Below are positions 27,342 to 47,000 of a stretch of DNA of 64,000 nt, in pieces (position 1 is the first letter of the stretch; the number at the start of each line of letters is the position of its first letter). The notes under the pieces are model-generated. The model was given only the letters and a program-made list of their open reading frames with translations. It was not told the origin of the DNA and did no database searches. Origin of the DNA: Stappia stellulata (GTDB lineage: Bacteria > Pseudomonadota > Alphaproteobacteria > Rhizobiales > Stappiaceae); the NCBI RefSeq assembly GCF_020176715.1, contig NZ_JAIVMF010000014.1:1-64000 (forward strand). The letters are read 5' to 3'. A program made the position numbers and the translations under genes.

Positions 27342-27992
27342 TCACTCCGGCCCGGCCTCCTCTTGCCTGGTGTTGTCGCTGTCGGCCGCCCGAAGCAGCC
27401 CAACGGCGCGCCGCATACGCTGCACGGCTGTCAGATGCGACAGCACGCCGTAGACGCCAAGGCCCGCGGCAATCACGCTTGCCCCGGCAATGCCGGCAAG
27501 CGGCGCGGCCCCGGCCGCCAGCAACATCGCGCACAGAAAGATGATCCGCTCCAGCCGCTCGAAAAAGTCCGGCCAGGCCTCGTTGCTGATCGGGATCTCG
27601 ATGGCGGTGCGCGCCTTGGCGTAGCTCGTCAGCACACCACCGGAAAACGCAAAGAGCGCCAGTCCCCACATGTCCTGCGCGGCGGCGATTGCCGCGAGCA
27701 CCACGAGCTCCTGGTAACGGTCGACCATCGCATCAAAATAGCCGCCCGAGCGCGTGCACATGTCGCGCCGCCGTGCCACCGCCCCGTCCAGCGCATCGAA
27801 GGCGAAGGACACAGCCAGTGTCACCCCGAAAAGCGCGGCATTGCCGTGCCAGAGATAGGCGAGCGAGGCAAGGCAGATCAGCACGAGACCCGTTGCGGTC
27901 ACCTGGTTCGGCGTCATCCGCGCGCGCACCAGCGGCGTCGACAGGCTTTCCCACAAAGGGTCGATATGGCGCTTGAACAATCCGTCGATCAT
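27342..27992 (-). CDS. CDP-alcohol phosphatidyltransferase (PgsA/PIP-synthase-like)
   Basis: 216 residues with about six membrane segments. The CDP-alcohol transferase signature is perfect: D66-x2-D69-G70-x2-A73-R74-x8-G83-x3-D87-x3-D91, which binds CDP-lipid and metal. The later block SYAKARTAIE resembles archaetidyl- and phosphatidylinositol-phosphate synthases, where basic residues bind inositol phosphate. With a myo-inositol-phosphate synthase and a PgpA-like phosphatase in the same island, I infer transfer of phosphatidyl (or ceramide-like) groups to inositol phosphate. Phosphatidylglycerophosphate or other head groups remain possible. It lies 66 bases after the FGGY kinase on the same strand. 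Confidence 0.85.
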   Translation of the reverse strand: MIDGLFKRHIDPLWESLSTPLVRARMTPNQVTATGLVLICLASLAYLWHGNAALFGVTLAVSFAFDALDGAVARRRDMCTRSGGYFDAMVDRYQELVVLAAIAAAQDMWGLALFAFSGGVLTSYAKARTAIEIPISNEAWPDFFERLERIIFLCAMLLAAGAAPLAGIAGASVIAAGLGVYGVLSHLTAVQRMRRAVGLLRAADSDNTRQEEAGPE

Positions 27993-28058
27993 CGGTGCTG
28001 AATCCCTTGAAGGCGCCGCGCCGGGCGGCGATTTCGGTTTGAAGACATGCGTCCGGCC

Positions 28059-29618
28059 CTATCGGTAAAGGGACAGAAGCCCCTTGCGGTGACGGTCGAG
28101 CCGCGCCGCGCGGGCCGCGCAGCGCGCAACGCCGGCGGGCTCGGGATCATAGATCTCGACCGGGCCGGAGGACAGAGCGGGCGCCGCCGCCTGAACGCTG
28201 TCGAACCAGCCAAGCGCCGCGCCGGCAATGGCCGCGGCTCCGCGCACGCCCGCATGGCGCGGCGCGCGCACCTCGACCCTGCGGTCAAGCGCATCGGCGA
28301 GCAATTGGGCGAAGCGGGGATTGACGGCGGCACCGCCGACCAGCGGCAACGGCAGGTCGTGGCGCACGCCCTTCTGGCGCGCGACCTTCGACATTGCCCA
28401 GCGCAGATTCAGCGCAACGCCCTCCAGGGTCGCCCGCAAAACCGCGTTTCGGTCGTGGCGCACGCTCAAACCGTACAGCACCCCGCGCAGACGATCGTCG
28501 TCGACGGGAACGCGCTCACCGGCGAGCCACGGCACGAACAGCGGGTCGTCGTCCTGCATCTCGCCGATGCCGTCATAGAGCGTGTCCAGCGCGCTGTCGC
28601 TGTCGCCGGCGGATTCGCCGACGAGACGGGCAGCCCAGGCGAAAGCCGTTCCAGCACTTTCCTGGGTCGCGATCAGAAGCGGCCGGAACCCGACGCTGCT
28701 GGCAATGGTGGCGTAGGAGTGGAACACATCGAGCCGGCGGGACGGAAAAAAGCCGCTCAGCCACGCGCTCGTGCCGGCATAGACGTGAAGTTGGCCGTCC
28801 TCCACCGCCCCCGAACCGATCGCCGTCGCCCCGACATCGCCGGCGCCGGCGACGACGGGAAGCCCCGCCGAAAGCCCAAGGTCGACCGCCGCCCGCTCGG
28901 CGAGACGGCCTGCAATAGAGGCGCCGTCGACAATCTCCGGCAGCTTGTCGAGCGGAATTCCGAGCCGGCCGGCGAGAAAGGGCGACCAGCCTTCCCGCCC
29001 CGGACGCGTGTCCATCATCCACGTCAGGTTCGCGCTGTCGGCGGTCGTGGTGAGAGCGCCGGTGGCGCGGAAGATCAGCCAGTCCTTGACGTCGAGAAGC
29101 TTGTGCGACGCAGCCCAGACCTCCGGTTCATGGGTCTTGATCCACAGCATCTTGGCCGGCGGGTCCATGCCGTTGTGCGACGGCGCGCCATTGGCGATCC
29201 TTGTCCAGGTGAACAATTTGTCCGCCCGGTATCCGGCGACCGTGGGAAATCCGCCGTTCATCTTGCGCGACAGAGTACCGGCGCGCTTGTCGAGCGAGAT
29301 CAGGGCCGGGCGCAGCACATCGCCCGCGCGGTCGACGCACACCAGCCCGCACATCTGCGCGCAAGGGACCAGCGCCACCGCGCGCTTCCTCAGGTCCGGG
29401 ATCTGGTCGTGCAGCGCGGCAACGCCTCGGCGCAGGGCCTGCCACCAGTCGTCCGGCTGTTGTTCGGCCATGTCCGGGCCGGGAAAGGAAAGCGGGTAGG
29501 ATTCGGCCGCGGTCGCCAGGAGTGCCAGCGAGCGGTCGAGCGCTGCAAGCTTGACGCCTGACGTGCCGAAATCGGCGGCAATGACCAGTTCCCGGCTGTT
29601 CTGCTTGTCCCGTGTCAC
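28059..29618 (-). CDS. FGGY-family carbohydrate kinase
   Basis: About 519 residues. The start is uncertain: two adjacent GTG codons (29621, 29618) follow a GGGGGG run, and I use the second, with spacing of six. The N-terminal phosphate loop AADFGTSGVKLAALD, the catalytic Asp in GAGDVGATAIGSG and the C-terminal block PLVGGAAVNPRFAQLLADAL are those of xylulose- and glycerol-kinase relatives. It phosphorylates a sugar or polyol in the cytoplasm. Co-transcription with a CDP-alcohol phosphatidyltransferase is unusual and raises the possibility that the product becomes a lipid head group, which is inference. Confidence 0.85.
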   Translation of the reverse strand: MTRDKQNSRELVIAADFGTSGVKLAALDRSLALLATAAESYPLSFPGPDMAEQQPDDWWQALRRGVAALHDQIPDLRKRAVALVPCAQMCGLVCVDRAGDVLRPALISLDKRAGTLSRKMNGGFPTVAGYRADKLFTWTRIANGAPSHNGMDPPAKMLWIKTHEPEVWAASHKLLDVKDWLIFRATGALTTTADSANLTWMMDTRPGREGWSPFLAGRLGIPLDKLPEIVDGASIAGRLAERAAVDLGLSAGLPVVAGAGDVGATAIGSGAVEDGQLHVYAGTSAWLSGFFPSRRLDVFHSYATIASSVGFRPLLIATQESAGTAFAWAARLVGESAGDSDSALDTLYDGIGEMQDDDPLFVPWLAGERVPVDDDRLRGVLYGLSVRHDRNAVLRATLEGVALNLRWAMSKVARQKGVRHDLPLPLVGGAAVNPRFAQLLADALDRRVEVRAPRHAGVRGAAAIAGAALGWFDSVQAAAPALSSGPVEIYDPEPAGVARCAARAARLDRHRKGLLSLYR

Positions 29619-29788
29619 CACTCGCCCCCCGGCCTCGTTCGGCCATATATTTGCCCATGCGCCGGGACCGGGTTTATAGAGGTCGGCGACAAAAATGAAC
29701 TCCCCAACGCACCGGGCGCGCAAGGCGCTTCAACAGGAGCCTCGGCTCCCGCTTCCGCACCGGACCGAAGAGAGAGAAAGCGGGTAAA

Positions 29789-30778
29789 ATGTCCGAGGGC
29801 GAAACGACCGGGTGCGGGGCACCCCGGGTCGACGTGGTCTACACATGGGTCGACGACACGTTTCCCGGATATGCCGAGACGCTGCGGCAATTCGCGACCA
29901 ACCGCCACGACACCAATCCCAACCGGACACGCGACAATCTGGAGATGCTGCGCTATTCGCTGCGCTCGCTCGAGCGTCACGTGCCCTTCGTCGGCCGCGT
30001 GCATCTGCTGACCTGCCGACCGCAGGTGCCGGACTGGTTGAACGCAGAACACCTCGACATTTCGATCGTGCACCACGACGAGATCATGGCGCCGGAGATC
30101 CTGCCGACCTTCAATTCCTTCGCCATCGTCAGCCATCTGGGCAAGCTGCCCGGCGTGAGCGAGCGCTTTCTCTATTGCGAGGACGACATGCTGTTCCTGG
30201 CGCCGGCGACCCTCGCGGACTTCGTCGAGGACGACGGCCGCACGCGCGTCTTCACCAAGAACAAGGATGCCCCCGTCCAGGCGCGGACGAAGCCCGAAGA
30301 CAGCCCGTGGAACCGGTCCATGGCAAACGCCAATGCGGCTCTCGACCGCGAATTTGCGTCGCATCGCCGGCGGTTCCTCGCCCATGGCCCGCGGCTGATC
30401 GAGCGCAGCGCGTTCGAGGAGATGTGCAATCGCTTCCCGGGCGAGATCGCGGCGACGCGGGCATCGCGTTTCCGCGGTGGCGACAACGTGCCGCCAGAGT
30501 ATCTTTATCCGCACTATCTGCTGGAGAAAGACGCGGGTGGTCTTGCGTCCGACGCCGAGACGCGGCGGATGACCGGCTATGCCTCGATCGACAATTTCCT
30601 GCCCTGGACCTGGCTGCAGCTTGCGAGGCTTGACCGCCTGCGCCCCGTCACGGCAACGCTCAACGACAATTTCAACGACCGTCCGAACCCGCGTGTCGTT
30701 GCCCATCTCCGCAAGCGGCTGAACCGCTGGTTTCCCGAGCCGTCGCGCTTCGAGCGCCCCGACCGCCCGCCGGCCTGA
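29789..30778 (+). CDS. Stealth-family sugar-phosphotransferase
   Basis: 329 residues, no signal peptide. Stealth conserved regions are visible in order: CR1 VDVVYTWVDD near residue 12, CR2 with RDNLEMLRYSLRSLERHVPFVG, LPTFNSFAI, and FLYCEDDMLFLAP near residues 128-140. Stealth proteins, which include GlcNAc-1-phosphotransferase and capsule polymerases, move hexose-1-phosphate from a nucleotide sugar to an acceptor. It is divergent from the kinase and its stop directly abuts that of the GT4 gene on the other strand. It could decorate a glycolipid or capsule; the acceptor is unknown. Confidence 0.84.
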   Translation: MSEGETTGCGAPRVDVVYTWVDDTFPGYAETLRQFATNRHDTNPNRTRDNLEMLRYSLRSLERHVPFVGRVHLLTCRPQVPDWLNAEHLDISIVHHDEIMAPEILPTFNSFAIVSHLGKLPGVSERFLYCEDDMLFLAPATLADFVEDDGRTRVFTKNKDAPVQARTKPEDSPWNRSMANANAALDREFASHRRRFLAHGPRLIERSAFEEMCNRFPGEIAATRASRFRGGDNVPPEYLYPHYLLEKDAGGLASDAETRRMTGYASIDNFLPWTWLQLARLDRLRPVTATLNDNFNDRPNPRVVAHLRKRLNRWFPEPSRFERPDRPPA

Positions 30779-31906
30779 TCAGGAGCGCAACGCGTTTCGG
30801 TAGATCTCCACGAAGGCCGGCCCCGTCGCCTCGACGCCGAAGGAAAGCGCATGCGGCAACGCCCAGGCGGTGAGCGCCCGGCGCGCCGATGCATCGCCGC
30901 ATACCTCGATCAGCTTCGCCGCGAGCGCCGGTGCATCGCCCGGCGGCACCAGCAGCCGCTCGCCCGGCCCGGTAAGCACGGTGCGATAGCCCTCGTTGGC
31001 GGCCGCCACCGGCAGGGTTCCGGCCGCCATCGCCTCGATCAGGATGAGCCCGAAGCTTTCGCCGTATAGGGACGGCGCCACCAGCAGATCCGCCTCCGCG
31101 ACAAGCCGGCGCGCGCTCTCCGCATCCGGCGAGGGAACGAACCGGATGCGCTCACCTTCCGTGCCCTGCATGGCCGCATGCAGCAGATCCTCCTGCGGGC
31201 CGCCCCCGGCGACGGTCAGCCGAACGCCGGGAAGCCGTGCCGCCACCTCCGGCCATGCCCCGAGCAGGACGCCCAGCCCCTTGCGCGCCTCGAAGCGGCC
31301 GAGAAAAACGATCTCCGGGTCCGTGGCGCTATCCGCCCGCCGCGGTTGGGCGCCGGCAGCCTGCCAGGGGGCGAGATCGATGGCCGGCGGCAGGACATGC
31401 GCTGCGACCCCGGCATCCTGCGGCCGCAAATGGGCAAGCGGCGTGGCGGAAGGAACGATGGCGGCGCGCGAATGCGTCAGGAAATGCCTCGCGGCCCGGC
31501 GCAGGGCGCGCGCGGCAAGGCCGCCCGTCCTGTCCTGCGGCAAGGTCGCATGAAAGGTGGTGACGGTCGGCAGGTCGAGATCGCGCCAGACCTGCCAGGC
31601 CATGAAAGGGGTCCAGGGCGTGTGCAGGTGAACAAGCTCCGCACCCCAGTCGCGCAACGAGGCAACCAGCGCGCGACGGTCGCGCGAGCGGGCATGGCTG
31701 ACCTCGAAGCCGGTTCCGAAGAGCTGCGCCTTGACGGCCCGCCCGCAATGATCGACCCCGGCAAGCGGCGCCCTGTCAAGCGGATAAGGCGCGACGACGC
31801 GCACGTCGTGACCGGCCCGCACGAGCCACGCGGAGAGGTCGCGGACATGCGCCTGCACGCCGCCCGGACGGGCAAGGTCATAGGGGCAGATCTGGACGAT
31901 CTTCAT
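30779..31906 (-). CDS. Glycosyltransferase family 4, PimA-like
   Basis: 375 residues from the ATG at 31906. The N-terminus MKIVQICPYDLARPGGVQAH is strikingly like mycobacterial PimA, the phosphatidylinositol mannosyltransferase. The C-terminal GT-B domain has VFLGRFEARKGL and the EX7E motif in YGESFGLILIEAMAAG. It transfers a nucleotide-activated sugar with retention of configuration, probably at the inner face of the membrane. Placement next to a CDP-alcohol phosphatidyltransferase (overlapping or nearly touching it) and in an island with inositol-phosphate synthase supports a glycosylated inositol-lipid product. An alternative start at 31924 would overlap the upstream gene. Confidence 0.85.
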   Translation of the reverse strand: MKIVQICPYDLARPGGVQAHVRDLSAWLVRAGHDVRVVAPYPLDRAPLAGVDHCGRAVKAQLFGTGFEVSHARSRDRRALVASLRDWGAELVHLHTPWTPFMAWQVWRDLDLPTVTTFHATLPQDRTGGLAARALRRAARHFLTHSRAAIVPSATPLAHLRPQDAGVAAHVLPPAIDLAPWQAAGAQPRRADSATDPEIVFLGRFEARKGLGVLLGAWPEVAARLPGVRLTVAGGGPQEDLLHAAMQGTEGERIRFVPSPDAESARRLVAEADLLVAPSLYGESFGLILIEAMAAGTLPVAAANEGYRTVLTGPGERLLVPPGDAPALAAKLIEVCGDASARRALTAWALPHALSFGVEATGPAFVEIYRNALRS

Positions 31907-31916
31907 CGCGCGCGCA

Positions 31917-32654
31917 TCATCCATCGCGCCGGGCAAGCGTTTCGACCAGACCCTCGGCGACATCGGCAAGCGCATAGACGAGCAGGAAGACGATCAGCCA
32001 GCTCAACGTCCCGCTCCACCAGGCAAGCAGCAGAGCCGGCGGGATCGCCCCGCTCAGCCCGGCAAAGAACCAGAGCACGATATCCAGCGGGCCGGCCGGC
32101 CGTTTCTCACCGGCCGCATCGGCCGCGTGGACCGCGTCGGCGCCGCCCGCGCCGGCATCGCGCACGACCCTGGCATAGAGCCGGACCCAGGCGGCCGCGC
32201 AGCCTACCGCCGTCCAGAGCGCGCCGGTGTCGAGCACCCGGTCCGCCAGGAGCCCGATGCTACCGTAGAGCAGGCCCCACTGCGCCATGTCGATGAGGAA
32301 GTCGAGCGTTCCGCCAAGCCGTGACGTACGCCCGGTGCAGCGGGCGAGCCCGCCGTCGACGCAATCGAGGATCTGAAACACAATCGCGACCAGCCCCACC
32401 CCGAGAGCGGCCTGCTCGAGCGGCAGCGTCAGCGCCAGCACCGGCATGGACAGGGCCAGCGGCACGGAGGACAGCGTGACGGCGGTCGGCGAGACAGGCG
32501 TGCGCGCGAGCAGCCAGATAAGCGGAAAACTCCAGATGCGATAGAACAGCAAGACGGCCCAGTCGCCCCGCAACTCCCCCTGCCGCTTGTCCCGTCCATA
32601 GTCCCGAAGGACGCTGGCGAAGGTCGGGGCGCCATTCAATCCCGTGTTGCTCAC
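31917..32654 (-). CDS. CDP-alcohol phosphatidyltransferase family membrane protein
   Basis: 245 residues with about six membrane segments. The signature is complete: D97-x2-D100-G101-x2-A104-R105-x8-G114-x3-D118-x3-D122. It joins a CDP- or CMP-activated group to an alcohol in the membrane. The start lies 69 bases from the divergent LicC-like nucleotidyltransferase, so the two may form an activation-transfer pair. Given the phosphonate genes in the island, CMP-aminoethylphosphonate is one plausible donor. It is followed at once by the PimA-like glycosyltransferase. Which head group it uses cannot be decided from sequence. Confidence 0.84.
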   Translation of the reverse strand: MSNTGLNGAPTFASVLRDYGRDKRQGELRGDWAVLLFYRIWSFPLIWLLARTPVSPTAVTLSSVPLALSMPVLALTLPLEQAALGVGLVAIVFQILDCVDGGLARCTGRTSRLGGTLDFLIDMAQWGLLYGSIGLLADRVLDTGALWTAVGCAAAWVRLYARVVRDAGAGGADAVHAADAAGEKRPAGPLDIVLWFFAGLSGAIPPALLLAWWSGTLSWLIVFLLVYALADVAEGLVETLARRDG

Positions 32655-32723
32655 CTGCCCTCTCTTGCCCCGTTGCCGGGCCTCGCTTATGACAGGATCG
32701 ACTTATCATATTCCGGCGGTTCA

Positions 32724-33494
32724 ATGGTCGACATCACTGCAATTTTTCTGGCCGCCGGGCGTGGCATGCGCATGGGCGAACGCGGACGCATGATCCCCAA
32801 GGGATTGCTGTCGATCGGCGAGGCGACCTTCGTCGAGGAAGCGGCCAGCACCTTGCGCGCGCACGGGATTTCGGCGCCGCGCATCGTCACCGGCCACCTG
32901 GCGGACCAATATGCAACGCTGGCGAGCGAGCGCCTGCCCGACGCCGAGCTGCGCCACAATCCCGACTTCGCCACCAAGGGATCGCTCCACAGCCTGCTCG
33001 TGGGACTGCGAGGCCAGACCGGACCGTGCCTGCTGCTGGAATCCGACCTGATTTTCGAGCCGCGCGCCGTGGCGGCCGCGATTGCGGACCCGTCGCAGGC
33101 CGCCCTGCTTGTATCCGGCGCAACGGGCGCGGGCGACGAGGTCTATGTCTGGGCCGACGAGAAAGCCGGCCAGAACTGCCTGCGCGACATGTCCAAGGAC
33201 GCCGCGCGCTGGCCGGATCGCCACCATGGCGAGCTGGTCGGGCTGACCTATCTGACGGAACGGGCCGTGGCGCATCTGAACGCCATCGGCGCCGCAATGG
33301 TCGCCCAGGACCCGATGGCGGACTATGAAAGCGGCATCGTCGCCCTCGCCGGTGAGGAGCCCGTCGCCTGCCCTCGGATCGACGATCTCGCATGGGCGGA
33401 AGTCGACAACGAGGCAATGCTGGAACGCGCCGCGACCCTTGTCTATCCGCGCATTGACGCAGCCCGCCGGGCACACCCGCTAATGCGGGCGTGA
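32724..33494 (+). CDS. Nucleotidyltransferase (LicC/CTP:phosphocholine-cytidylyltransferase-like)
   Basis: 256 residues from the ATG at 32724. The nucleotide-binding loop FLAAGRGMRMGE and PKGLLSIG are followed by HNPDFATKGSLHSL and the metal-binding block LLLESDLIFEP. These are closer to LicC, inositol-phosphate and aminoethylphosphonate cytidylyltransferases than to MobA. It would activate a phospho- or phosphono-alcohol as the CMP/CDP derivative in the cytoplasm. The neighbouring divergent CDP-alcohol transferase supports a role in head-group activation. Its 3' end overlaps the lptG-like gene by 15 bases, convergently. Confidence 0.8.
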   Translation: MVDITAIFLAAGRGMRMGERGRMIPKGLLSIGEATFVEEAASTLRAHGISAPRIVTGHLADQYATLASERLPDAELRHNPDFATKGSLHSLLVGLRGQTGPCLLLESDLIFEPRAVAAAIADPSQAALLVSGATGAGDEVYVWADEKAGQNCLRDMSKDAARWPDRHHGELVGLTYLTERAVAHLNAIGAAMVAQDPMADYESGIVALAGEEPVACPRIDDLAWAEVDNEAMLERAATLVYPRIDAARRAHPLMRA

Positions 33495-34706
33495 CAGGAC
33501 GGCCTGCGCGACAAGCGTTCCGACAAGCGCGAAGACGACGGCGATCCAACTGCTGGTGAAACCGGACAGCGCGCCGATCTCGCCCATTGCCCAGGAAACC
33601 TTGGTGGCCACGAGCGCGAAATACCCGCAAAGCGCCAGCCCGACGATCCGCCCCGGCGAGACGATCCGGCCGGAGCCCGCGATCGGCGCCAGACTGGCCC
33701 CAAGCAACGCATAGGCTCCGGGAAGGAAAAACGCCGCAATGCGCCGCCACAAGGCAGCCTCGACGTCCGGCCCCTTCAACGGATTGTCGTCTGCCGCCAG
33801 CCGTTCAAGCGGCTGTTGCGGCAGATAGAAAGCCGGAATGTCGAAATACGTCAGCGTTGACGGAAGCACATCCAGACGAATGTCGAGCGTTGCGTAGCGC
33901 GAGATCAGATAGAGCGGTTGCTCCGCATAGCCCTCCGATCCCGGCTCTCCCTCGTCCCCGCTTCTGTCGTCGGGCGGCAAGCTCGCCCAAAGGTCCACAT
34001 CATGGAACCGCCAGAAACCGCCCTGCCCCAGGGGCTCTGCCTTGCGCGCAACGATCACGTCACGCAAGTCGCCGGAAACCACCCCTCGATAGAGTTCAAC
34101 ATCCCTGAATTCCGGCCGATCGGCACGCACGATCCGTGCCCTCAGCGTCGTATCGTTGACCACGAGCCAGCGCTTGTCCGCGAGCACGCCCCGTTTGAAA
34201 CGGCCACCATAGGCGCCAAGCTCGAGATCCGCCTGGGCGAAGACGGCCGCCGGTCGCCACCAGCGTTCCAGCGAGCCCTGCAACGCGCCGCTGAGGCAGG
34301 CAAAGGCGGCAACGGCCACCAGCGTCTGCCGCGGCGACCAGCCGGCGGCGGCAAGGATCGTCGTCTCGCGATTGAACAGACGATAGAGTTCCGCCGCGAA
34401 CACCCCGATGAAACAGGCGACCGGAAAGAGCCGCGTTACAATATCGACCGTGCGAAACCCGAGGTAGGTCGCAAGAAGCACAGGGCCGGACCGCTCGAGC
34501 TCGACGGCGCGGGCGAGCACGCCGTCGAGGTTCTGCGCCAGATCGATCGCCCAGGCGATGATCAGGAACATCGCCATCACGAGCGCCGTCACTTTCACGT
34601 AGAGCGCAAGCGCCCGGCGGGCGGCAATGCCGAACAGCGCCACGGGAGGCCCGGCGGCGATCCGCCACCCGTAGCTGCCTTTTGCCTGCGCCGCCCCCAT
34701 GCTCAT
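33480..34706 (-). CDS. lptG: YjgP/YjgQ-family permease (LptG-like)
   Basis: 408 residues from the ATG at 34706, which overlaps the stop of the upstream lptF-like gene as ATGA. Topology is that of LptG: three membrane segments near the N-terminus, a periplasmic beta-jellyroll insert (about 150-300), and three segments at the end. LptF/G form the membrane part of the ABC machine that extracts lipopolysaccharide from the inner membrane. The usual alphaproteobacterial neighbours (lptD, surA, ksgA) are absent. The pair lies within lipid-synthesis genes, so it may export another lipid. It may also be the only lptFG pair of the genome. Confidence 0.83.
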   Translation of the reverse strand: MSMGAAQAKGSYGWRIAAGPPVALFGIAARRALALYVKVTALVMAMFLIIAWAIDLAQNLDGVLARAVELERSGPVLLATYLGFRTVDIVTRLFPVACFIGVFAAELYRLFNRETTILAAAGWSPRQTLVAVAAFACLSGALQGSLERWWRPAAVFAQADLELGAYGGRFKRGVLADKRWLVVNDTTLRARIVRADRPEFRDVELYRGVVSGDLRDVIVARKAEPLGQGGFWRFHDVDLWASLPPDDRSGDEGEPGSEGYAEQPLYLISRYATLDIRLDVLPSTLTYFDIPAFYLPQQPLERLAADDNPLKGPDVEAALWRRIAAFFLPGAYALLGASLAPIAGSGRIVSPGRIVGLALCGYFALVATKVSWAMGEIGALSGFTSSWIAVVFALVGTLVAQAVLSRPH

Positions 34707-35929
34707 GCCCGTTCGTTCACCGGACGCAGCAACGCCGCCGATCGCGCCCCGACCGTCAGCACCAGGAGCAACGCAAGGCCGAGCCCGGTGACGGATCCAA
34801 GCGACACCATGGCGGCGGGCTGGGCAAGCGCCACCGAGCCAAGCAGCGTCCGCAGGCCGACGTCGAGGGCAAGAAGGACCGCGCAGGCGAACGGCATTGC
34901 GAAATAACCGGTCAAGCCCCCGGAGGCGAAGGAACAGGCCAGCAACGCCAGAAGCGGCGCCAGAAAGGCGGCGATCGCCCTGGCGAAGCGTTCGCCGGCA
35001 ATCTGACGCGCGGCCGCCCCGGCCTCCGACCCGGCCGATCCCGGATCGAGCGCCTCGAAGAAGGTCCATTCCTGCGCCACCTCGCCGCGGGCGGCGTGGT
35101 GCAGGATGTTGGTCAGGCTGACGGGAACGGACACATTCTCCACCTTCATGCGCGGAAGCACGGGTACACTCTCCAGATCCGGCGTGCCGAGCGCGCGCAG
35201 GTTCGACCCGCGCCCGCTGCGCAAGACCCCGCCAGCGCGGTCTTCGGGCGCGACGCGCACGAAATCATAGGCGATCACCCGGCCAAGCCCCAGATTGTAG
35301 TTGCCCTTATCGTCGGGCCCCTCGAGGTTCCAGTTGCCGGCCTGGGTCACGCGCCAGGTGCCCTCCTCGCCCGGCTGATGCACGAACAGGCTCTCGTGCG
35401 GCGGCGAGACCGACGTGTCACTCAAGGCGGCGAATGTCTTTCCCCGGATCGTCTCGATCAGCGTGCCTTCGCTGGGCTCGGTGATGCGGCGAAACAGGAG
35501 ATCGCTCTTCAGGGTGAAGATGACGGTCCGGGTGGCGTTCTTCGCCAGCGGATTGACGAAACCGGACACGGCAAGACTTGCGCCGAAAGCGCAGACCCCG
35601 AGGACAAGCGCGACCTTGAGCGGCAGCGCCGAGGAGACGCCGGCTGCGGAGAGCGCAACCATCTCGCGCTCCTCGCGCGCCGCGACAAAGGCGAAATAGC
35701 CGCCGATGACGCAGGCAAGCGCCAGCGCGAAATCGAAGATCTCAGGAGACGAAAGCAAAAGGATGAACACGGCCGACAGCACGTCGCCGCCGTTGCCGAG
35801 CACCTGTTCCAGGATGCCGGTCAGCTCTTCCGCCAGAAACACCACCTCGATCGTCACCAGAACGATCAGCACCCTTGCGAGCACCCGCAAAAATAGCGAG
35901 CGGGTGGCGAGCGACCAGCCTCTCATCAC
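34703..35929 (-). CDS. lptF: YjgP/YjgQ-family permease (LptF-like)
   Basis: 408 residues. The N-terminus (LFLRVLARVLIVLVTIEVVFLAEELTGILEQV) and the block REEREMVALSAAGVSS, the coupling-helix region of LptF, identify the family. A periplasmic beta-domain spans about 145-290 and three segments follow. It pairs with the downstream LptG-like protein and needs an LptB-type ATPase that is not encoded nearby. It is divergent from pgpA with 196 bases between. Its location in the lipid island is the reason to question whether lipopolysaccharide is the cargo. Confidence 0.84.
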   Translation of the reverse strand: MMRGWSLATRSLFLRVLARVLIVLVTIEVVFLAEELTGILEQVLGNGGDVLSAVFILLLSSPEIFDFALALACVIGGYFAFVAAREEREMVALSAAGVSSALPLKVALVLGVCAFGASLAVSGFVNPLAKNATRTVIFTLKSDLLFRRITEPSEGTLIETIRGKTFAALSDTSVSPPHESLFVHQPGEEGTWRVTQAGNWNLEGPDDKGNYNLGLGRVIAYDFVRVAPEDRAGGVLRSGRGSNLRALGTPDLESVPVLPRMKVENVSVPVSLTNILHHAARGEVAQEWTFFEALDPGSAGSEAGAAARQIAGERFARAIAAFLAPLLALLACSFASGGLTGYFAMPFACAVLLALDVGLRTLLGSVALAQPAAMVSLGSVTGLGLALLLVLTVGARSAALLRPVNERA

Positions 35930-38365: not shown

Positions 38366-38369
38366 CGGC

Positions 38370-39619: not shown

Positions 39620-40267
39620 TTACTCTATCTGGATGCGTTCGACCAGCGCCTTGCCGGTGGCGAGATCGCGGCCCATCACCCGCACCTCGCGCACGCTCGG
39701 CATGAGCCCGTCCTCATTGACGTCGACATAGGCGTAGAGCGGCCGGAACGTCCGCTCGCCGGCGGTCGCGGTGACTTCCGCACGCCCCGGTTCCACCAGT
39801 TTCAGCGTCGCCATCCGCTCCGGGTAGGACACCACATAAAGCTTGAAGACGTTCGGATCGCCGGTCGCCTGGGCGCGGACGCCGAAGGCAAAATTGTCCT
39901 CCACCATCTTCAGCGCCTTGCGCTCCCCGGTGGTGTTGAACCGGCGCCAATAGGCAACCACGGGCTCGTCCGGATCAAGCGTCCCGTCGTCGCGGAAGTT
40001 CGCCACATAGACAATGGTGTTGGAGTTGGTCGAGCGCTGCAGGTAAAACAGCATGCCGGTCTCGTCAGGCACCGGAAAGTCGGGGCGCACGACCGGAACC
40101 TCCTCGACAAGCGTGACGCTGGACCCGGCAACGGCCTGTTCGGTTCCCGGACGGATGCGCGTGCCTTCCTGCGCCTGCGACAGCGACCCGACCACGAGAA
40201 CCCCGAACGCCAGCGCAAAGGCGCCAAGCCTTGCAACGGCGCGCCGACGCGTGACGACCCGTGTCAT
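39620..40267 (-). CDS. Exported DUF4833 family protein
   Basis: 215 residues from the ATG at 40267. A signal peptide (AVARLGAFALAFGVLVVGSLSQA before QEG) targets it to the periplasm. The core, MLFYLQRSTNSNTIVYVANF, then VAYWRRF and DNFAFGV, matches DUF4833, a small beta-rich family that I recall next to inositol-phosphate synthase and CDP-alcohol transferase genes in Bacteroidetes. Function is unknown. Placement between the SPT-like and inositol-synthase genes supports a link with the lipid pathway, perhaps in lipid handling or transport on the periplasmic side. Confidence 0.75.
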   Translation of the reverse strand: MTRVVTRRRAVARLGAFALAFGVLVVGSLSQAQEGTRIRPGTEQAVAGSSVTLVEEVPVVRPDFPVPDETGMLFYLQRSTNSNTIVYVANFRDDGTLDPDEPVVAYWRRFNTTGERKALKMVEDNFAFGVRAQATGDPNVFKLYVVSYPERMATLKLVEPGRAEVTATAGERTFRPLYAYVDVNEDGLMPSVREVRVMGRDLATGKALVERIQIE

Positions 40268-40332
40268 CGGCGTCGGTCTCCAGTCCTGTTCGCTCTCTGC
40301 CGGCATTGTCTGCTGTACCGCTGGACGGGCGA

Positions 40333-41571
40333 TCAGGCGCCCGCGATCGCCGGGCGCGGCTCCGCGTCGGCGCCGTCGAAGCTCGCCACGATCTCGGCGA
40401 TGAGCCCGATGGTCTTTTCCATCTGGTCCCGGGTGTGTTCGGCGGAAATGAAGAAGCGGATGCGGGGAAGATCTTTCGGCACGCCCACCTGGACGATCGG
40501 CGGCGCGTAGATCCCGGCGTCGAGCAGCGTCTGCGAGACGATCATCGTCTGCTCGGGCGTGGCGAAGAGGATCGGCACAACGCCACAGCCGATGGCATCG
40601 CCCGTGTTCAAGCCACAGTCGCGGGCGTGGTCGCGGAAGAACAGCGAATTCTCATGCAGCCGGGCAACCCGTTGCGGATTTGCCTTGAGGTGGGTCAGCG
40701 CGCCTTGCGCCGCACCAAGGGTCGCAGGCGACAGACCGACACTGTAGACGAAGCCCGGCAGACAGAACCGGAGCCAGTCGATGACGCTCTTATCCGCGCA
40801 GACGAAGCCGCCGGAGGACACGAAGGATTTCGACAAGGTGCCGACGCCGAGTTCGATCCGGCGCGGGTCTATCCCGAAATGCTCGCACAGGCCGCGACCG
40901 GTCTCGCCGAGCACGCCGTAGGAATGGGCTTCGTCGACCAGGAGCCAGGCGTCGTGCTTCTCCTTCATCTCGACAAGGCGGGGAAGATCGGGGATGTCGC
41001 CATCCATCGAGTAGAGACCCTCGACGACGACGAGCACGTTCCGGTACTCGCCGCGACACTCTTCGAGCTGGCGCTCAAGGTCGTCGAGATTGTTGTGATC
41101 GAAGGTCCGGTATTCGTAGCGCCCGTTCTTCGCTCCGACGAAAATCGAGTTGTGAGCAAGTTCGTCGATCAGCACCAGGTCGCGCGGCCCCATCAGGAAG
41201 TTGATGAGGGAGACATTGACCAGATAGCCGCTGACCAGCGTCATGACGTCGCCGACGCCTAGAAATTCCGCCAACTCCGTCTCGAAGGCGCGGTGGCCGC
41301 TGCGCTCGCCGCCGACAAGCCGCGACGCACCGACGCCGCTTCCCAGCCGGTGCAATTCGGCGCTCGACGTCTCGATGATATCGGGATGCTGGCTCAGGCC
41401 GAGATAGTCGTAATGCGCGAAACTGATGAAGGGGATACCGTTGCGTTCGCAGATTTCCCGTTGCCGGTCGACCGGCAGAAAATACGGATTGTGGCGCTCG
41501 ATGATCGCCTTTCCGGCCAAGCGGAAACGGCGCTCGGCAACCACGGAAAAACTTGGCCGCTCAGGCTTCAT
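40333..41571 (-). CDS. Serine-palmitoyltransferase-like aminotransferase (alpha-oxoamine synthase)
   Basis: 412 residues, PLP-dependent. The internal-aldimine Lys is K248 in LGVGTLSKSFVSSGG; DEAHSYG (D213, H216) and ELAHNS (H140, ring-stacking) are present. The family covers serine palmitoyltransferase, KBL, AONS and ALAS. I choose the first because a ketosphinganine-reductase-like gene is in the same operon and there are no biotin or threonine genes. It would condense serine (or alanine) with an acyl-CoA/ACP to 3-ketosphinganine. First gene of a five-gene operon (SPT, DUF4833, ino1, KDSR-like, CdsA-like). Confidence 0.83.
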   Translation of the reverse strand: MKPERPSFSVVAERRFRLAGKAIIERHNPYFLPVDRQREICERNGIPFISFAHYDYLGLSQHPDIIETSSAELHRLGSGVGASRLVGGERSGHRAFETELAEFLGVGDVMTLVSGYLVNVSLINFLMGPRDLVLIDELAHNSIFVGAKNGRYEYRTFDHNNLDDLERQLEECRGEYRNVLVVVEGLYSMDGDIPDLPRLVEMKEKHDAWLLVDEAHSYGVLGETGRGLCEHFGIDPRRIELGVGTLSKSFVSSGGFVCADKSVIDWLRFCLPGFVYSVGLSPATLGAAQGALTHLKANPQRVARLHENSLFFRDHARDCGLNTGDAIGCGVVPILFATPEQTMIVSQTLLDAGIYAPPIVQVGVPKDLPRIRFFISAEHTRDQMEKTIGLIAEIVASFDGADAEPRPAIAGA

Positions 41572-41597
41572 TCTCGTCTACCCCCAACACCCGATCA

Positions 41598-42151: not shown

Positions 42152-43312
42152 TCACGAGATCACTTTCTGTTTCATCTCTGACACAACCTCGCCCGCCGCC
42201 AGAAGGAACGCGTCGATGGTGACAGGATCGATCGCTCCGATGACGCCGACGCGAAACGTGCCGCGGCCGGTCATCTTGCCGGCATAGATCGCAAAGCCGC
42301 GCGCGCGCAGCGCCTCATAAAAGGCCGGGAAGGCAAACCAGCGTTCGTGCGGTTCGACGAAGGAGGCAATCACCGGCGCCTGGCGCGCCGGATCGAGCGC
42401 CGGGTAAAACCCGAGATCCGCCATTCCCGACAGGAGCGTGTCGAGATTGCGCGAATAGCGCGCCAGCCGCGCGGGCGGACCGCCCTCCGCCTCCAGTTCG
42501 GCGAGCGCCGCATCGAGCGCGGCAATCACATGCGTTGGCGGGGTGAACCGCCACTGCCCGCCGTTGGCGAGCGCCTCCGCCTGCGCCTGGAGATCGAGCA
42601 CCACGGACGGCGAGCGTCCCCGCGCCGCCTCCAGCAGATCCTTGCGGCACACCACGAAGCCGAGACCCGGAACGCCTTGCAGGCACTTGTTGGAGGATGC
42701 GGCCATTGCCGCCAGCTCCAGCCCGCTCATATCGACCGGCAACGCGCCGAAACCGCTCATGCTGTCGACCAGAAGCCAGCGCCCTTCGGCGCGCACACAG
42801 CTTGCGATTTCCTCCAGGGGATTGAGCAGGCCCGAGGTCGTCTCGCAATGGACCATCGCAACGAAACCGATTTTCGGATCCGCGCGAAGCCGGCGCGTAA
42901 TTTCGGCGGCGTCATGCACGTCGGTTTCCGCGACCTCATAGATCTCGACGGCGCGACCGCTCTTGCGACAGATGTCGGCCATGCGATGGCCGTAGGCACC
43001 GTTGACCAGCAGCAAAACCCGCTCTCCCGCGCCGACGAAGGTCGTCAGCATCGCCTCCACGGCGAATGTGCCACTGCCCTGCAAGGGAACGCAGACATGC
43101 GCCGCCTCCGTTCCGCCGGCAAGCGCGCGAATGCGCTCGAACACGGTATGGGACAGATCGACGAAGGCTGGATCCCGCGATCCCCAGTCGCGAAGCATGG
43201 CTTCCTTGACGCGGGCGCTCGTCGTCAGCGGTCCGGGCGTCAGCAGCACGGGCGTCTGCGCATCGTCGCTCGACCGGCTGGCGGCGGTCTTCGCGTATGT
43301 TGGGCTGCTCAT
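42152..43312 (-). CDS. phnW: 2-Aminoethylphosphonate:pyruvate transaminase (PhnW-like)
   Basis: 386 residues, fold-type I PLP enzyme. LLTPGPLTTSARVKEAML and RDPAFVDL are typical of PhnW, with LVDSMSGFGALPVD (D183) and the PLP Lys K209 in SSNKCLQGVPGLGFV. In degradation it removes the amino group of AEP; in a cluster with PEP mutase and phosphonopyruvate decarboxylase it runs the other way, turning phosphonoacetaldehyde into AEP. Its ATG overlaps the stop of the decarboxylase gene as ATGA, so the two are coupled. Absence of phosphonoacetaldehyde hydrolase supports synthesis. Confidence 0.9.
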   Translation of the reverse strand: MSSPTYAKTAASRSSDDAQTPVLLTPGPLTTSARVKEAMLRDWGSRDPAFVDLSHTVFERIRALAGGTEAAHVCVPLQGSGTFAVEAMLTTFVGAGERVLLLVNGAYGHRMADICRKSGRAVEIYEVAETDVHDAAEITRRLRADPKIGFVAMVHCETTSGLLNPLEEIASCVRAEGRWLLVDSMSGFGALPVDMSGLELAAMAASSNKCLQGVPGLGFVVCRKDLLEAARGRSPSVVLDLQAQAEALANGGQWRFTPPTHVIAALDAALAELEAEGGPPARLARYSRNLDTLLSGMADLGFYPALDPARQAPVIASFVEPHERWFAFPAFYEALRARGFAIYAGKMTGRGTFRVGVIGAIDPVTIDAFLLAAGEVVSEMKQKVIS

Positions 43313-44454
43313 AACGTCTGTTCCCCCAGATAGGTCCGAAAGCGGCGCGCCACCTCGCGCGGGGCAACCGTCGGCCGGCCAAGTCCCTCCACCGGATCCG
43401 TCGACACCCTGACGTGGAGCAACCGGGGCCCGGGGGCCGCAAGCGCTGCCTGAAGAGCCGCAGCCGCACCGCCGAGGCCTGCGGCCCGGGCGGCGAAACG
43501 ATAGCCGCAGGCGGCCGCAACCTGCGCGAAATCGACGTTCGGCGAAACCGTCGCCTGCCCGCCGGTCGACAGGTGGCAGCCGTTGTCCAGCACGATATGG
43601 GTCAGGTTTTCCGGCGCCTGCGCGCCGATGGTCGCCATATTGCCGAGCTTCATCAAAGCCGCGCCGTCGCCGTCGAGGACGACAATCTCGCGGCCGCTGT
43701 TCAGGGCCGCTCCCAGGCCGATTGCGCTGGCCCCGCCCATCGAACCGACGCAGTAGAGATTGCGCGCCTCATCGCCGAGGGTGAAGAGCTCGCGCCCCGT
43801 GTGCCCGGTCGTGGCGATCACGCCCGCGCCCTCTGGCAGGAGCCGCAAGAGCGCCTGGAGCGTGTCGATGCGCCGTGCCGCCGCGGCGGCCGCATCGAAA
43901 TCGGCAATTTGTGAAGGCGCGCGTTTTTCAAGACCCGGCTCCTCCCGCGGTGCTGCGGCAACCGCGCCCTTGGGCTGGACCAGCGCCACCGGCTGTCCGG
44001 TCTCGCGCATCAGGCGCGCGGCCTGTGCGAGGCAGCTCTCCACATCGGCGGCATTTTCGGGAAAATCGAGACGCCGCGCGCCGATCAGATCGAGCATCGG
44101 TTGGGTGATCCGCCCCATCAGCTCGTGCTGCGGTTCGTCCGTCAGCCCCGGCGCGCCGCGCCAGGTGACGATCATCAGCGTCGGGATGGCGAAGGGATGG
44201 TTGAGCGAGGTGATCGGATTGACCGCATTGCCAAGGCCGGAGTTCTGGCACATGACGGCGGTGTCCCGCCCGGCAAGCCAGGCACCGGCGGCAATCGCCA
44301 CGGCCTCGCCCTCGCTGGTCGCGCCGACATAGCGGGTCTGCACATCCGAGATCGCCGCATTCATCAAGGGCGTCAGGAAACTGCAGGGAACCCCGGCGAA
44401 AAAACCGATGCCCTGCCGCTTGGCGGCATCGAGAAACTGTCCGGCTTCGATCAT
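43309..44454 (-). CDS. aepY: Phosphonopyruvate decarboxylase
   Basis: 381 residues, thiamine-diphosphate enzyme. GVPCSFLTPLMNA and GATSEGEAVAIAAGAWLAG (catalytic Glu) lie at the N-terminus; the TPP motif GDGAALMKLGNMATIGA with the distal Asn (VLDNGCH) lies near residue 255. Ppd decarboxylates phosphonopyruvate to phosphonoacetaldehyde, making PEP mutase thermodynamically irreversible. Gap to the PEP-mutase gene is seven bases and it overlaps the transaminase by four, so the operon order is the order of the pathway. Confidence 0.93.
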   Translation of the reverse strand: MIEAGQFLDAAKRQGIGFFAGVPCSFLTPLMNAAISDVQTRYVGATSEGEAVAIAAGAWLAGRDTAVMCQNSGLGNAVNPITSLNHPFAIPTLMIVTWRGAPGLTDEPQHELMGRITQPMLDLIGARRLDFPENAADVESCLAQAARLMRETGQPVALVQPKGAVAAAPREEPGLEKRAPSQIADFDAAAAAARRIDTLQALLRLLPEGAGVIATTGHTGRELFTLGDEARNLYCVGSMGGASAIGLGAALNSGREIVVLDGDGAALMKLGNMATIGAQAPENLTHIVLDNGCHLSTGGQATVSPNVDFAQVAAACGYRFAARAAGLGGAAAALQAALAAPGPRLLHVRVSTDPVEGLGRPTVAPREVARRFRTYLGEQTL

Positions 44455-44461
44455 CTTGCGC

Positions 44462-46105
44462 TCACACCGCGTCCCGCGCCTGGGCGAGGTCCATGAGGTC
44501 GTTCACATTGCCCCAGTAACCGCGCACGTAAACGACCCCGATCCGCTCGCCCTCGCCGGCCAACCGGGTCAGGACCGCACCGAGATCGGCGGTGTCGAGG
44601 GTCCCCTCGACCTCCATCGCTGCCAGCGTCTCGCGGATCCGGCTCACGCCCTCGGCGTTTGCGCGCATCAAGCCGATAAAGGTGCCGTTGGCAGCCGTGC
44701 CATCGGTAACGAAGCTCGTGAGGAAGACCGGCGCACCGGTCACCTCGAGATCGGCATCATGAGGCTGCGAACACGCGACCGCGTCGCGGAGGAGCTGACC
44801 GCCGGCAGCGGGATCCGCCTGCGGATCGACCAGAAGCACAATGTCGGCCTGCGCCTCTTCCAGGAGCGACAGAAAGAACGGCCGGTAGAGAATGTCGCCA
44901 TAGGAAACGATCGTGTCGCCTTCGCCCTGCGTGAGCGCAAGCGCCAGCGACCGGGCCTCGCCGGAGGAGGCATGAGCCGGGTTTTCCACCTTGCGAATGC
45001 CCGGTACGACCACCGCATCCTCGCGGTAGCCGACGACAACGGAAATCTCCGACACTCCGTGTCGGCCCAGCGCCTCGACCTGGCGGCCGAGCAGCGACTG
45101 TCCGCGCACGGGCACCATGCACTTGGGGCGATCCGCGGTCAGCTCGCCCAGCCCCTCTCCCCGCGTCGCCGCCAGAATGACGGCCCGCGCCGGGTCGCGT
45201 GTCGAGAGGTAGCGCTTTTCCGCCTGTTCCAGTTCCTGCGCGCCGGCGAGGGCGAAGACGTCGGCGAGCGGCGCAACCGCATCCTCGACCTCCAGCAGCG
45301 TTTCCTGCGCCTTCAGCTTGGCGCAAGTGTCGCGCATGGCCTGGATCGAGCTTCTGAGATTGTGGTTGGCCCAGATCACCATCGCCGCATTGGCATCGCG
45401 GAACCGGTCCGTCGGGGTGCGGTAGTATTTGGTCGGAATGAGCACCACCGGCGCACGGTTCTCCCATTGCCGGCAGAACTCGAGGATCTCGTCGGCGGTG
45501 CTCTTCTTGGAGTGAATGACGATCGCATCCGCGCCGGCCTCGACATAGGCATGGGCGCGCGTCAGCGCCTCATCCACGCCCCGCCCCGCGATCAGCGCCT
45601 CGACCCGTGCAACCACAGTGAAATCCGGATGCGTCTGCGTGTCCTTGCCGGCCTTGATCTTTCCGCAGAACTCGTCGACGTCGGCCAGCGGCTGGTTTTC
45701 GCCGAGGAAAGAATTCGTCTTGGGAAAGATCTTGTCCTCGATGCAAACGCCGGCGATGCCGCGCTCGCAGAGCTTTTGCACGAAGCGGCGGAAATTGTTG
45801 AAATTGCCGTAGCCGGTGTCGCCATCGACGAGGATGGGCAGCGACGTCGCGTCGGACATATATTCCAGCATGTCGAGGACCTGCGTCCAGGACAGTTCGT
45901 TGTTGTCCCTGACCCCCAGCATCGCCGACATCGACAGGCCGGACGCCCAGATCCCCTCAAACCCCGCCTCCTCGGCGATGCGGGCCGACAAGCCGCTGTG
46001 CGCTTCCATCAGGAAGGCGAGCTCGGGGCGGGTCAACATCTGCCGCAAGCGGGTGAATCTCGATGCCTGGGTCGGCAGCCGATCGGGGAAGCCATCGAAA
46101 TGCAA
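44462..46105 (-). CDS. aepX: Phosphoenolpyruvate mutase fused to a nucleotidyltransferase
   Basis: 547 residues from a TTG (46105); the next ATG would remove 22 residues and is an alternative. The N-terminal PEP mutase has VDGDTGYGN (D94, D96) and [10 protein letters not shown] (123-132), the loop that distinguishes mutase from isocitrate-lyase relatives. It forms the C-P bond. The C-terminal domain starts near 307 ([23 protein letters not shown]) with the metal Asp in VSYGDILY and GNVNDLMDL at the end. PntC-type fusions activate AEP as CMP-AEP for transfer to lipids or glycans. The loop reads LAATRG rather than LAAGxG, which I recall in other PEP-mutase fusions. Confidence 0.93.
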
Positions 46106-46193
46106 GGGAATGCCCTTTCTGGATACTCAGGATCGTCGGCGAAAAGACGGTGCAACGACAGGCCGACGGGTCAGGGTGCGAAGAAATGGAGCC

Positions 46194-47000
46194 TCAGACG
46201 CGGAATGTATAGTCGCCGGACGGGTTCCGCTCCACATCGGGCGGGTAGGCTGCATGTTTATCGGCATAATAGGCATCCAGATGGTCGCCCTCGGATGCGC
46301 GATTATAGGTCGCGAAATAGAGCCGGCGCTGCTCTTGCGCGCGATTGACGGAAGAGCGGTGCGGACAAAAGCTGTCGATCAGGACCACATCGCCGGGCCG
46401 GGTTTCCACGGGCACGAATGTCATTGTCTTCATGTCGTCCTCGCTCAGCGGTTCCCATTCGCGGAACATGCCGTCGCGATGATGCCCGGCGGCGAACTCT
46501 ACGCAGCCGTTTTCCTCCGTCGATGCATCGATCGACACCATGATCGACACGAACCGGCTGGCATAGTTCCACCAGCCCGCCTGCTGATCCTGATGCGGGG
46601 TGAAACCGGCGCCCCCCGGGCGTTTGAAATTGAGTTTTTCCTTGAAGAGCACCGCGGGCTCCTCGAGTGCCACCGTCGCATAGGCCGTCAGCGCGCGGCT
46701 GAGCGTTGAAAACACGGGAGAATGGCGTTCGAGATACTCCATCCGGCTGATGACCCGCCGTGCTTCAGGGTCACAGACCGTCTCGCCATAGACCCAGTGC
46801 TGGCCAGGCTTTTCCGGCATGGATTCCAGCCGCCGCACTTCCTGTTCGATCATCTGGAGCGCCGCCGGGGGAAAAGCCTGCTCGAGCAGGAGATAACCGT
46901 CGTCGTGATAGCGACGGGCTTCGTCGTCCGTCATGCTGCGCAGGGCAAACGTCGGTGCGTCCGGTGAGGACGAGGCGGTCCCCTTGCCTGAATGTGTCAT
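46194..47000 (-). CDS. Phytanoyl-CoA dioxygenase (PhyH) family oxygenase
   Basis: 268 residues from the ATG at 47000, ten bases after GGAGGAG. The Fe(II) facial triad is visible: H136-Q-D138 in TPHQDQQ and H214 in CPHRSSVN; downstream Arg residues can bind 2-oxoglutarate. In phosphonate clusters such enzymes hydroxylate the carbon next to phosphorus. First gene of the phosphonate operon, 88 bases before PEP mutase. I infer 1-hydroxy-2-aminoethylphosphonate as a possible product, but fatty-acid or sphingoid hydroxylation is not excluded. Confidence 0.85.
   Translation of the reverse strand: MTHSGKGTASSSPDAPTFALRSMTDDEARRYHDDGYLLLEQAFPPAALQMIEQEVRRLESMPEKPGQHWVYGETVCDPEARRVISRMEYLERHSPVFSTLSRALTAYATVALEEPAVLFKEKLNFKRPGGAGFTPHQDQQAGWWNYASRFVSIMVSIDASTEENGCVEFAAGHHRDGMFREWEPLSEDDMKTMTFVPVETRPGDVVLIDSFCPHRSSVNRAQEQRRLYFATYNRASEGDHLDAYYADKHAAYPPDVERNPSGDYTFRV

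Follow-up and report, generated by a model that had tools for sequence, protein, structure and literature searches.

Systems related to the locus described here have been reported from several bacteria. The phosphosphingolipid region of Caulobacter crescentus encodes LptC2, LptF2 and LptG2 together with a flippase; lipid transport by these proteins is presented there as a proposal (PMC11324152). For Bacteroides, a scheme was outlined that consists of a myo-inositol-phosphate synthase, a phosphatidylinositol-phosphate (PIP) synthase and a PgpA-type PIP phosphatase, BT_1525 being a phosphatase of the PgpA family (PMC9246714). PfSgaB, an alpha-oxoamine synthase (AOS) linked to a polyketide synthase (PKS), was described as nearly serine-specific and as making 3-keto-sphinganines, and a KDSR-like short-chain dehydrogenase/reductase (SDR) was proposed to act after it (PMC12134224). 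A sphingophosphonolipid of Bacteriovorax (Bdellovibrio) stolpii, which an original prediction on the DNA analyzed here had mentioned, is confirmed by a review (PMC6148460). Here, we have analyzed a window comprising the first 64,000 nucleotides of contig 14 (NZ_JAIVMF010000014.1) of the 4.5 Mb genome of Stappia stellulata, in which genes related to sphingoid, inositol and phosphonate chemistry form one block. This block is very probably a single envelope-lipid system. Judged from the gene families, it may on balance be expected to make and export one outer-membrane glycolipid, namely a glycosylated inositol-phosphate (sphingo)lipid that bears aminoethylphosphonate (AEP) and is served by an LptF/LptG pair of its own.

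Genes were called with a gene finder, whose choice of start codons was retained; families were assigned with Pfam and NCBIfam profiles and the closest structures by comparison with the PDB. All genes named in the original prediction were recovered in this independent way, and the block furthermore contains a CdsA-like enzyme, an LptF/LptG-like pair, an FGGY kinase and a Stealth phosphotransferase that had been missed. The surroundings of the AOS gene were then compared with those in 15 other Stappiaceae genomes. Order and relative strands of the 17 genes between 27342 and 46039, i.e., from the PIP synthase-like gene to the phosphoenolpyruvate (PEP) mutase fusion, were identical in all 15, and this arrangement is conserved even though the Stealth, PntC-like and PgpA genes are oriented opposite to the remaining 14. 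The flanks of the block differ between the two genera concerned (g1 and g7); in g7, the genes flanking it in the window were not found beside the block, except for the ATP-binding cassette (ABC) exporter and weak partial matches. DUF4833 marks the block: it was found in 16 of 87 Stappiaceae genomes, which are exactly the 15 carriers and the genome of the window, and in the class at large, 2 of 385 genomes, one of them that of the window, had a match over the cut-off. AOS orthologues were found with 99% identity in the metagenome-assembled genome SP118, with 95% in Stappia stellulata DSM 5886 and also in other Stappia species; the congener G001 (89% complete, 7% contaminated) had neither an AOS orthologue nor DUF4833.

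The core of the gene set is not confined to this host but recurs in the family of Pseudooceanicola nanhaiensis (Rhodobacteraceae). DUF4833 was present in 14 of 394 genomes of this family and, in the order to which G088 belongs, in 10 of 292, two sets that partly overlap. Outside the Stappiaceae, 22 loci were compared: Pseudooceanicola G061 and G062, G088, and 19 further loci. The order AOS-DUF4833-Ino1-SDR-CdsA-LptF-LptG-GT4-FGGY-PIP synthase was kept in G061, G062 and G088. The 19 further loci contained Ino1 in all cases, SDR in 17 and AOS in 16; with one locus set aside that is truncated at the edge of its contig, CdsA, LptF and LptG were present in 18/18, the family 4 glycosyltransferase (GT4) in 17/18, and FGGY kinase and PIP synthase in 15/18. 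Neighborhood comparison, which had been suggested as a check, thus revealed that the families do co-occur and gave no support to an accidental arrangement. Such an accident would mean that two separate glycerophospholipid pathways, for phosphatidylinositol and AEP-diacylglycerol, happen to lie beside an unrelated AOS. The CdsA-like and both CDP-alcohol enzymes do belong to families normally using cytidine diphosphate (CDP)-diacylglycerol or diacylglycerol, and AOS is absent beside DUF4833 in three of the 19 loci. However, order and strands are the same in 16 genomes of two genera, unlike the flanks, and the series AOS-DUF4833-Ino1-SDR-CdsA-LptFG is found again in another order of the class; we therefore consider an accidental cluster improbable. 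The three loci speak against a sphingoid product in every version of the block: G595 and G746 lack SDR as well as AOS there and G652 lacks AOS, while the other genes stay, so that some versions may be glycerolipid-based.

The reading as one lipid system, put forward in the original prediction, is further borne out by the LptF/LptG genes, a second pair of which was confined to carriers among the Stappiaceae searched. Four to five PF03739 matches per genome were obtained in all 15 carriers searched and two in all 10 non-carriers; because of this surplus, the LptF and LptG of the block are regarded as the second pair. Both stay below the canonical equivalog cut-offs (Table 1), and the other pair, at G000:C2:257262-259521 of the same genome, reached 208-220 bits against PF03739. 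Among 16 genomes of the order that belong to other families, three (G042, G047, and G050) had more than two matches as well; hence, additional Lpt copies are not restricted to this block, which counts against the reading proposed here.

The AOS had been called SPT-like, i.e., similar to serine palmitoyltransferase (SPT). The gene is present, but membership in the SPT family was supported neither by cut-offs nor by phylogeny. Several observations weigh against a sphingolipid. The AOS remained under all three NCBIfam SPT cut-offs (276 of 500, 269 of 640, and 206 of 670 bits). A tree of 38 proteins, in which long branches were flagged and which contained only two characterized SPTs (3a2b and 2x8u) and neither CC_1162 nor PfSgaB, placed it apart from these SPTs and together with RkpG-like synthases (support 100/99), RkpG being the label that we assume for this clade. 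Among the 20 proteins of the Pfam scan near the block (27342-48952), no acyl carrier protein (ACP) or acyl-ACP synthetase was found, the rest of the Stappia genome not having been searched. Since the AOS lies outside the SPT families and no ceramide synthase was found in the block, we infer a sphingolipid from relatives of the enzyme. Its best PDB matches were SPTs (205 bits), with BioF and Kbl close behind (188 bits). The active site of fold-type I enzymes has a pyridoxal phosphate lysine and conserved aspartate and histidine residues; alignment with SPT, BioF and Kbl revealed that these are intact in the AOS (Lys239, Asp204, His207 and His131). The signature HNS is found in the AOS and in RkpG-like enzymes, and HAS in BioF, Kbl and the two SPTs.

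Homologues of YghO (33-38% identity) were encoded within about 2 kb of AOS relatives outside the block in six of nine loci, and none was found in any block locus (234 sequences including the window; other parts of the Stappia genome were outside this search). The gene yghO is listed as the counterpart of CC_1154, which is required for dihydroceramide (PMC9386255). A further point against a ceramide is that RefSeq annotates the K-12 YghO query as a putative transcriptional regulator, so that the ceramide function assumed here depends on that source. The AOS neighborhood at L086 further includes PgpA and Ino1 as well as a PAP2_3 protein and a Lipid_DES-domain desaturase. Because of the serine preference of PfSgaB, the YghO homologues beside AOS relatives and the neighborhood at L086, the product of AOS and SDR is probably a sphingoid-type base; that it is N-acylated to a ceramide has a little less than an even chance. 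Alternatively, AOS and SDR might make a non-ceramide anchor, for example a long-chain amino alcohol or amino ketone lacking an N-acyl group, with inositol placed on this anchor or on diacylglycerol. Such an anchor would resemble the lipid moiety proposed for rhizobial K-antigens. The sister position of the AOS to RkpG-like enzymes, the common HNS signature and the lack of a YghO-type ceramide synthase in the block loci searched agree with this alternative; against it stand the YghO homologues beside the non-block relatives and the product of PfSgaB, the sole PKS-linked AOS tested biochemically (PMC12134224). We regard the non-ceramide anchor as doubtful.

A second AOS of the same genome, 43% identical to that of the block, is encoded at G000:C1:388000-420000 (L063, L064) directly after a type I PKS of 2523 residues. 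This RkpG-like paralogue lies near genes for capsule synthesis and polysaccharide export, and its layout is that of the sphinganine-making SgaAB.

An inositol-phosphate head group is predicted with good confidence from the gene families. Ino1 exceeded the cut-off of PF01658, and the equivalog cut-off of TIGR03450 was not reached; likewise, the PIP synthase-like transferase has a complete CDP-alcohol motif and stays below the equivalog cut-offs for inositol-phosphate synthases. The perfect signatures claimed for both CDP-alcohol transferases were indeed found, as the motif is complete in each. PgpA was not found in any of the 22 loci of the Pseudooceanicola family, and the PgpA of the block may be the housekeeping enzyme, a point against the reading proposed here. 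An inositol-phosphoceramide synthase of the AUR1/PAP2 type was not found among the 20 proteins scanned, the rest of the genome not having been searched.

The original prediction had also described a full AEP set. PEP mutase, Ppd and PhnW each exceeded their NCBIfam equivalog cut-offs, as claimed, but the set is not part of the core. The profile PF13714 fails to distinguish PEP mutase from relatives of isocitrate lyase; therefore, the motif EDKx5NS and TIGR02320 (cut-off 319.55 bits) were used, against which two genomes were intermediate (G866 with 310.7 and G665 with 216.5 bits). PEP mutase was over the cut-off in 11 of 28 carriers tested, was missing in the other 17, and was found in none of 12 Stappiaceae that do not carry the block. 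Given this patchy presence among carriers, AEP synthesis is an add-on to the block and not its core. PEP mutase is rare in the family of Pseudooceanicola nanhaiensis (6 of 394 genomes) and was found in 4 of 14 carriers as compared to 2 of 380 genomes without the block (Fisher p=1.5e-5; upon omission of G061, the centre genome of the sample, 2.7e-4; with G866 taken as positive, 3.3e-5), p-values that overstate independence because the sampled genomes are related to each other. Five carriers outside the Stappiaceae have a PEP mutase, which adjoins the block in G782 and lies on a different contig in G061, G062, G626 and G652. It is accompanied by PhnW in G061 and G782, and it is fused to a CTP_transf_like domain in G626 and G652, with an adjacent iron alcohol dehydrogenase in G652; as the latter two enzymes are of another type, not all four carriers in the test need make AEP.

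The separate nucleotidyltransferase had been considered LicC-like. It proved closer to the PntC domain of Tde1415, which was matched over almost its full length (131 bits). The fused domain of the PEP mutase gave a weak match to LicC (29 bits), and its start motif is altered from the usual GxGxR pattern. In all 20 PntC-like orthologues aligned, R15, K25, E104, D106, K153 and E196 of Tde-PntC were kept. Of these, the catalytic R15, K25 and K153 were mutated by Rice et al., and E104 and E196, which contact the AEP amine, are aspartates in LicC (PMC6697681). From these residues, the enzyme is predicted to be an AEP cytidylyltransferase; where they are kept in genomes that have no PEP mutase, the enzyme may act on AEP taken from the environment or on phosphoethanolamine. 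Stappia stellulata takes up AEP and grows on it (PMC8316502).

Counts on the PntC-like gene included 6 of the 16 Stappiaceae carriers and excluded G859, whose contig ends early. The second CDP-alcohol transferase accompanied the PntC-like gene in 17 of 18 assessed carriers and was found in none of nine carriers that do not have it; its motif was intact in all 19 orthologues found. Stealth was present in 15 of the 18 (not in G626, G652, and G1115), and a 34% match was obtained in G595, which has no PntC-like gene. G088 fits a link of these three genes to AEP: it has none of them, and neither of its two PF13714 matches contains EDKx5NS. Restriction of the three genes to AEP makers was considered as well and rejected, because 8 of the 18 PntC-like carriers have no PEP mutase over the cut-off and G782 has one but no PntC-like gene.

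These numbers also bear on the fate of AEP. Counting against its use on the lipid are the eight PntC-like carriers that have no PEP mutase and G782, which alone of the nine carriers that do not have the PntC-like gene has a PEP mutase, the resulting modest association (p=0.04, or 0.18 with the Stappiaceae collapsed to two), and the fact that a known transferase of AEP to lipid was not identified in the analysis. The AEP genes might instead serve a surface glycan (capsule, lipopolysaccharide (LPS) or exopolysaccharide) via Stealth or another transferase, the lipid being free of phosphonate and adjacency reflecting a shared role in the envelope. LicD-like transferases or glycosyltransferases are often present in known AEP clusters (PMC6697681), the PEP mutase lies on another contig than the block in four of the five non-Stappiaceae carriers that have one, and no transferase confined to AEP carriers was found. 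On the other hand, PEP mutase is enriched in carriers of the block despite differing kinds of operon, and the PntC-like gene lies inside the block, where it forms a pair with the gene for a CDP-alcohol transferase, an enzyme of lipid type. A glycan thus appears possible but unlikely as the recipient, and placement of AEP on the lipid of the block is the outcome that we cautiously favor.

A PhyH-type oxygenase is encoded next to the PEP mutase and may be an AEP hydroxylase. It adjoins the block in 6 of 13 carriers of genus g1, the window's own included, and in none of three g7 carriers; being variable, it does not belong to the constant block. In the near-identical genome G006 (G006:C45:95951-96760; L034, L203), the PEP mutase frame contains a stop codon and PhyH is not found beside it, due to either a sequencing error or decay.

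The following pathway can be proposed. AOS would join an amino acid, most likely serine, to an acyl thioester, and SDR would reduce the ketone to a sphingoid-like base. Ino1 would provide inositol-3-phosphate and the CdsA-like enzyme a CDP-lipid, which the PIP synthase-like transferase would couple, whereupon PgpA, going by its family, would take off the extra phosphate. GT4, perhaps with Stealth and the FGGY kinase, may attach sugar or phosphate groups. AEP would be made by PEP mutase, Ppd and PhnW, a step well supported by the families, and converted by the PntC-like enzyme to its cytidine monophosphate (CMP) derivative CMP-AEP, as the conserved residues suggest; the neighboring CDP-alcohol transferase, or Stealth, might then transfer AEP to the lipid. 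Finally, the second LptF/LptG, shared Lpt machinery and the ABC exporter could carry the lipid to the outer membrane, by analogy to Caulobacter, for which this is itself a proposal. Protozoan glycoinositol-phospholipids can bear AEP. We tentatively suggest, as a possible though unlikely extension, that the block specifies a bacterial counterpart of them: an inositol-phosphoceramide glycolipid with (hydroxy)aminoethylphosphonate, made by a patchy and perhaps transferable block with its own Lpt-type bridge, in which PntC and a CDP-alcohol transferase would form a Kennedy-like route to a carbon-phosphorus (C-P) head group.

Table 1. Genes of the block and associated genes in the window, with predicted roles and profile or structure matches.
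Predicted product	Position	Strand	Match
ABC exporter, about 25 kb from the block	812..2503	+	PF00005 over cut-off, PF00664 just under
CDP-alcohol phosphatidyltransferase, phosphatidylinositol-phosphate synthase-like	27342..27992	-	PF01066 52 bits; NF040950 116 bits (cut-off 180); PDB 4mnd, 6h53
FGGY kinase	28059..29621	-	PF00370/PF02782; XylB 227 bits (cut-off 380)
Stealth-family phosphotransferase	29789..30778	+	Stealth CR2/CR3 over cut-off, CR1/CR4 under
GT4, candidate inositol-lipid glycosyltransferase	30779..31906	-	PF13692/PF00534 ~92 bits; MshA model 62 bits, below cut-off
Second CDP-alcohol phosphotransferase, candidate AEP transferase to lipid	31917..32654	-	PF01066 32 bits
PntC-like cytidylyltransferase, predicted CMP-AEP synthase	32724..33494	+	best PDB 6pd1 (Tde1415 PntC-AEPT), 131 bits, residues 6-247
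LptG-like permease, second Lpt pair	33480..34706	-	PF03739 88.6 bits; TIGR04408 76 bits (cut-off 240)
LptF-like permease, second Lpt pair	34703..35872	-	PF03739 57.5 bits; TIGR04407 64 bits (cut-off 230)
PgpA family, candidate inositol-phosphate lipid phosphatase	36126..36578	+	PF04608 126.5 bits
CdsA-like CTP:lipid-phosphate cytidylyltransferase	36587..37537	-	PF01148 104 bits
SDR, candidate 3-keto reductase (putative KDSR role)	37538..38326	-	PF00106 144 bits; 0/25 listed NCBIfam models over cut-off
Ino1-type myo-inositol-phosphate synthase	38370..39365	-	PF01658 116 bits; TIGR03450 365 bits (cut-off 638)
DUF4833, all-beta, N-terminal hydrophobic stretch, probably secreted	39620..40267	-	
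AOS, SPT-like/RkpG-like; predicted first step, amino acid + acyl thioester	40333..41544	-	PF00155
PhnW/AEP transaminase	42152..43312	-	TIGR02326 406 bits (cut-off 401)
Ppd, phosphonopyruvate decarboxylase	43309..44454	-	TIGR03297 405 bits (cut-off 312.5)
PEP mutase fused to NTP_transf_3 domain	44462..46039	-	TIGR02320 386 bits (cut-off 320); EDKx5NS
PhyH-type oxygenase, variable accessory, possible phosphonate hydroxylase	46194..46934	-	PF05721 98.5 bits; NF052437 methylphosphonate hydroxylase 134 bits (cut-off 500)

Next to the block, at 47302-49668, the window encodes, in this order, an acrylyl-CoA reductase of the AcuI type, a DUF1326 protein and a member of the PpoB2 (copper chaperone) family. 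In g7 and in the Pseudooceanicola family, an ABC exporter and a membrane protein of the Frag1/DRAM/Sfk1 family (PF10277) flank the block (L057:3009-6756, L111:13516-17492, and similar loci), as does, in g7 and Pseudooceanicola, a conserved protein of about 360-385 residues that has no Pfam match; of these flanking genes, only the ABC gene, about 25 kb off, was found in Stappia. Furthermore, at L122 (G042:C31), the neighbors of a distant DUF4833 comprise LptF-like and ABC-type proteins as well as a YghO homologue and an AOS, the same associations in a different arrangement.

Every enzyme family of the block except DUF4833 has known members. What appears to be new is how they are combined and inherited as one block, together with the candidate route to a phosphonolipid through PntC and a CDP-alcohol transferase; a publication on this block was not found in searches of the open-access literature. 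To our knowledge, the genes for bacterial sphingophosphonolipids and the step from AEP to lipid have not been established, and the block supplies named candidates for both in marine Stappia species that can be cultured. This lineage shows inositol, AOS-derived and phosphonate chemistry co-inherited with a second Lpt pair. The block is also a second case, next to Caulobacter, in which Lpt-type proteins may export a lipid that is not LPS. If AEP is indeed placed on the lipid, the latter would be a phosphorus store as well as a surface feature.

The comparison with described systems can be summarized as follows. The region CC_1152-CC_1168 of Caulobacter crescentus, likewise alphaproteobacterial, unites an AOS, a reductase, a second LptF/LptG and a flippase-type transporter, and its product, too, was proposed to reach the outer membrane. 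In contrast, ACP, acyl-ACP synthetase and ceramide synthase were not found in the Stappia block (the rest of the genome was not searched), the Stappia AOS falls into another clade than the SPTs compared (a tree that does not contain CC_1162), and inositol and AEP head groups are predicted in place of phosphoglycerate. With BT_1522-BT_1526 of Bacteroides thetaiotaomicron, the block has in common the grouping of a myo-inositol-phosphate synthase, a CDP-alcohol PIP synthase and a PgpA-family phosphatase; unlike that cluster, it does not encode an AUR1/PAP2-type synthase, and it contains additional LptFG, GT4, Stealth and AEP genes with the AOS inside the block. The SgaAB and RkpA-RkpG clusters of PKS and AOS resemble it in the AOS super-clade, as seen from the RkpG-like rows of the tree, which does not include PfSgaB, and in the association of AOS with SDR, whereas no PKS lies beside the AOS of the block, the PKS-linked paralogue being found at a separate locus of the same genome. 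The lipid of Bacteriovorax (Bdellovibrio) stolpii, a phosphonate on a sphingoid base, is of the kind predicted here; this likeness concerns products and not genes, and inositol is not mentioned in the passages of the review (PMC6148460) on that lipid. The PntC clusters of the Treponema denticola Tde1415 type contain PEP mutase, Ppd, AEP transaminase and a PntC-type enzyme as well, with both fused and separate nucleotidyltransferases, but in Stappia the AEP genes are coupled to genes for inositol lipids, an AOS and a CDP-alcohol transferase and not to LicD or glycan genes.

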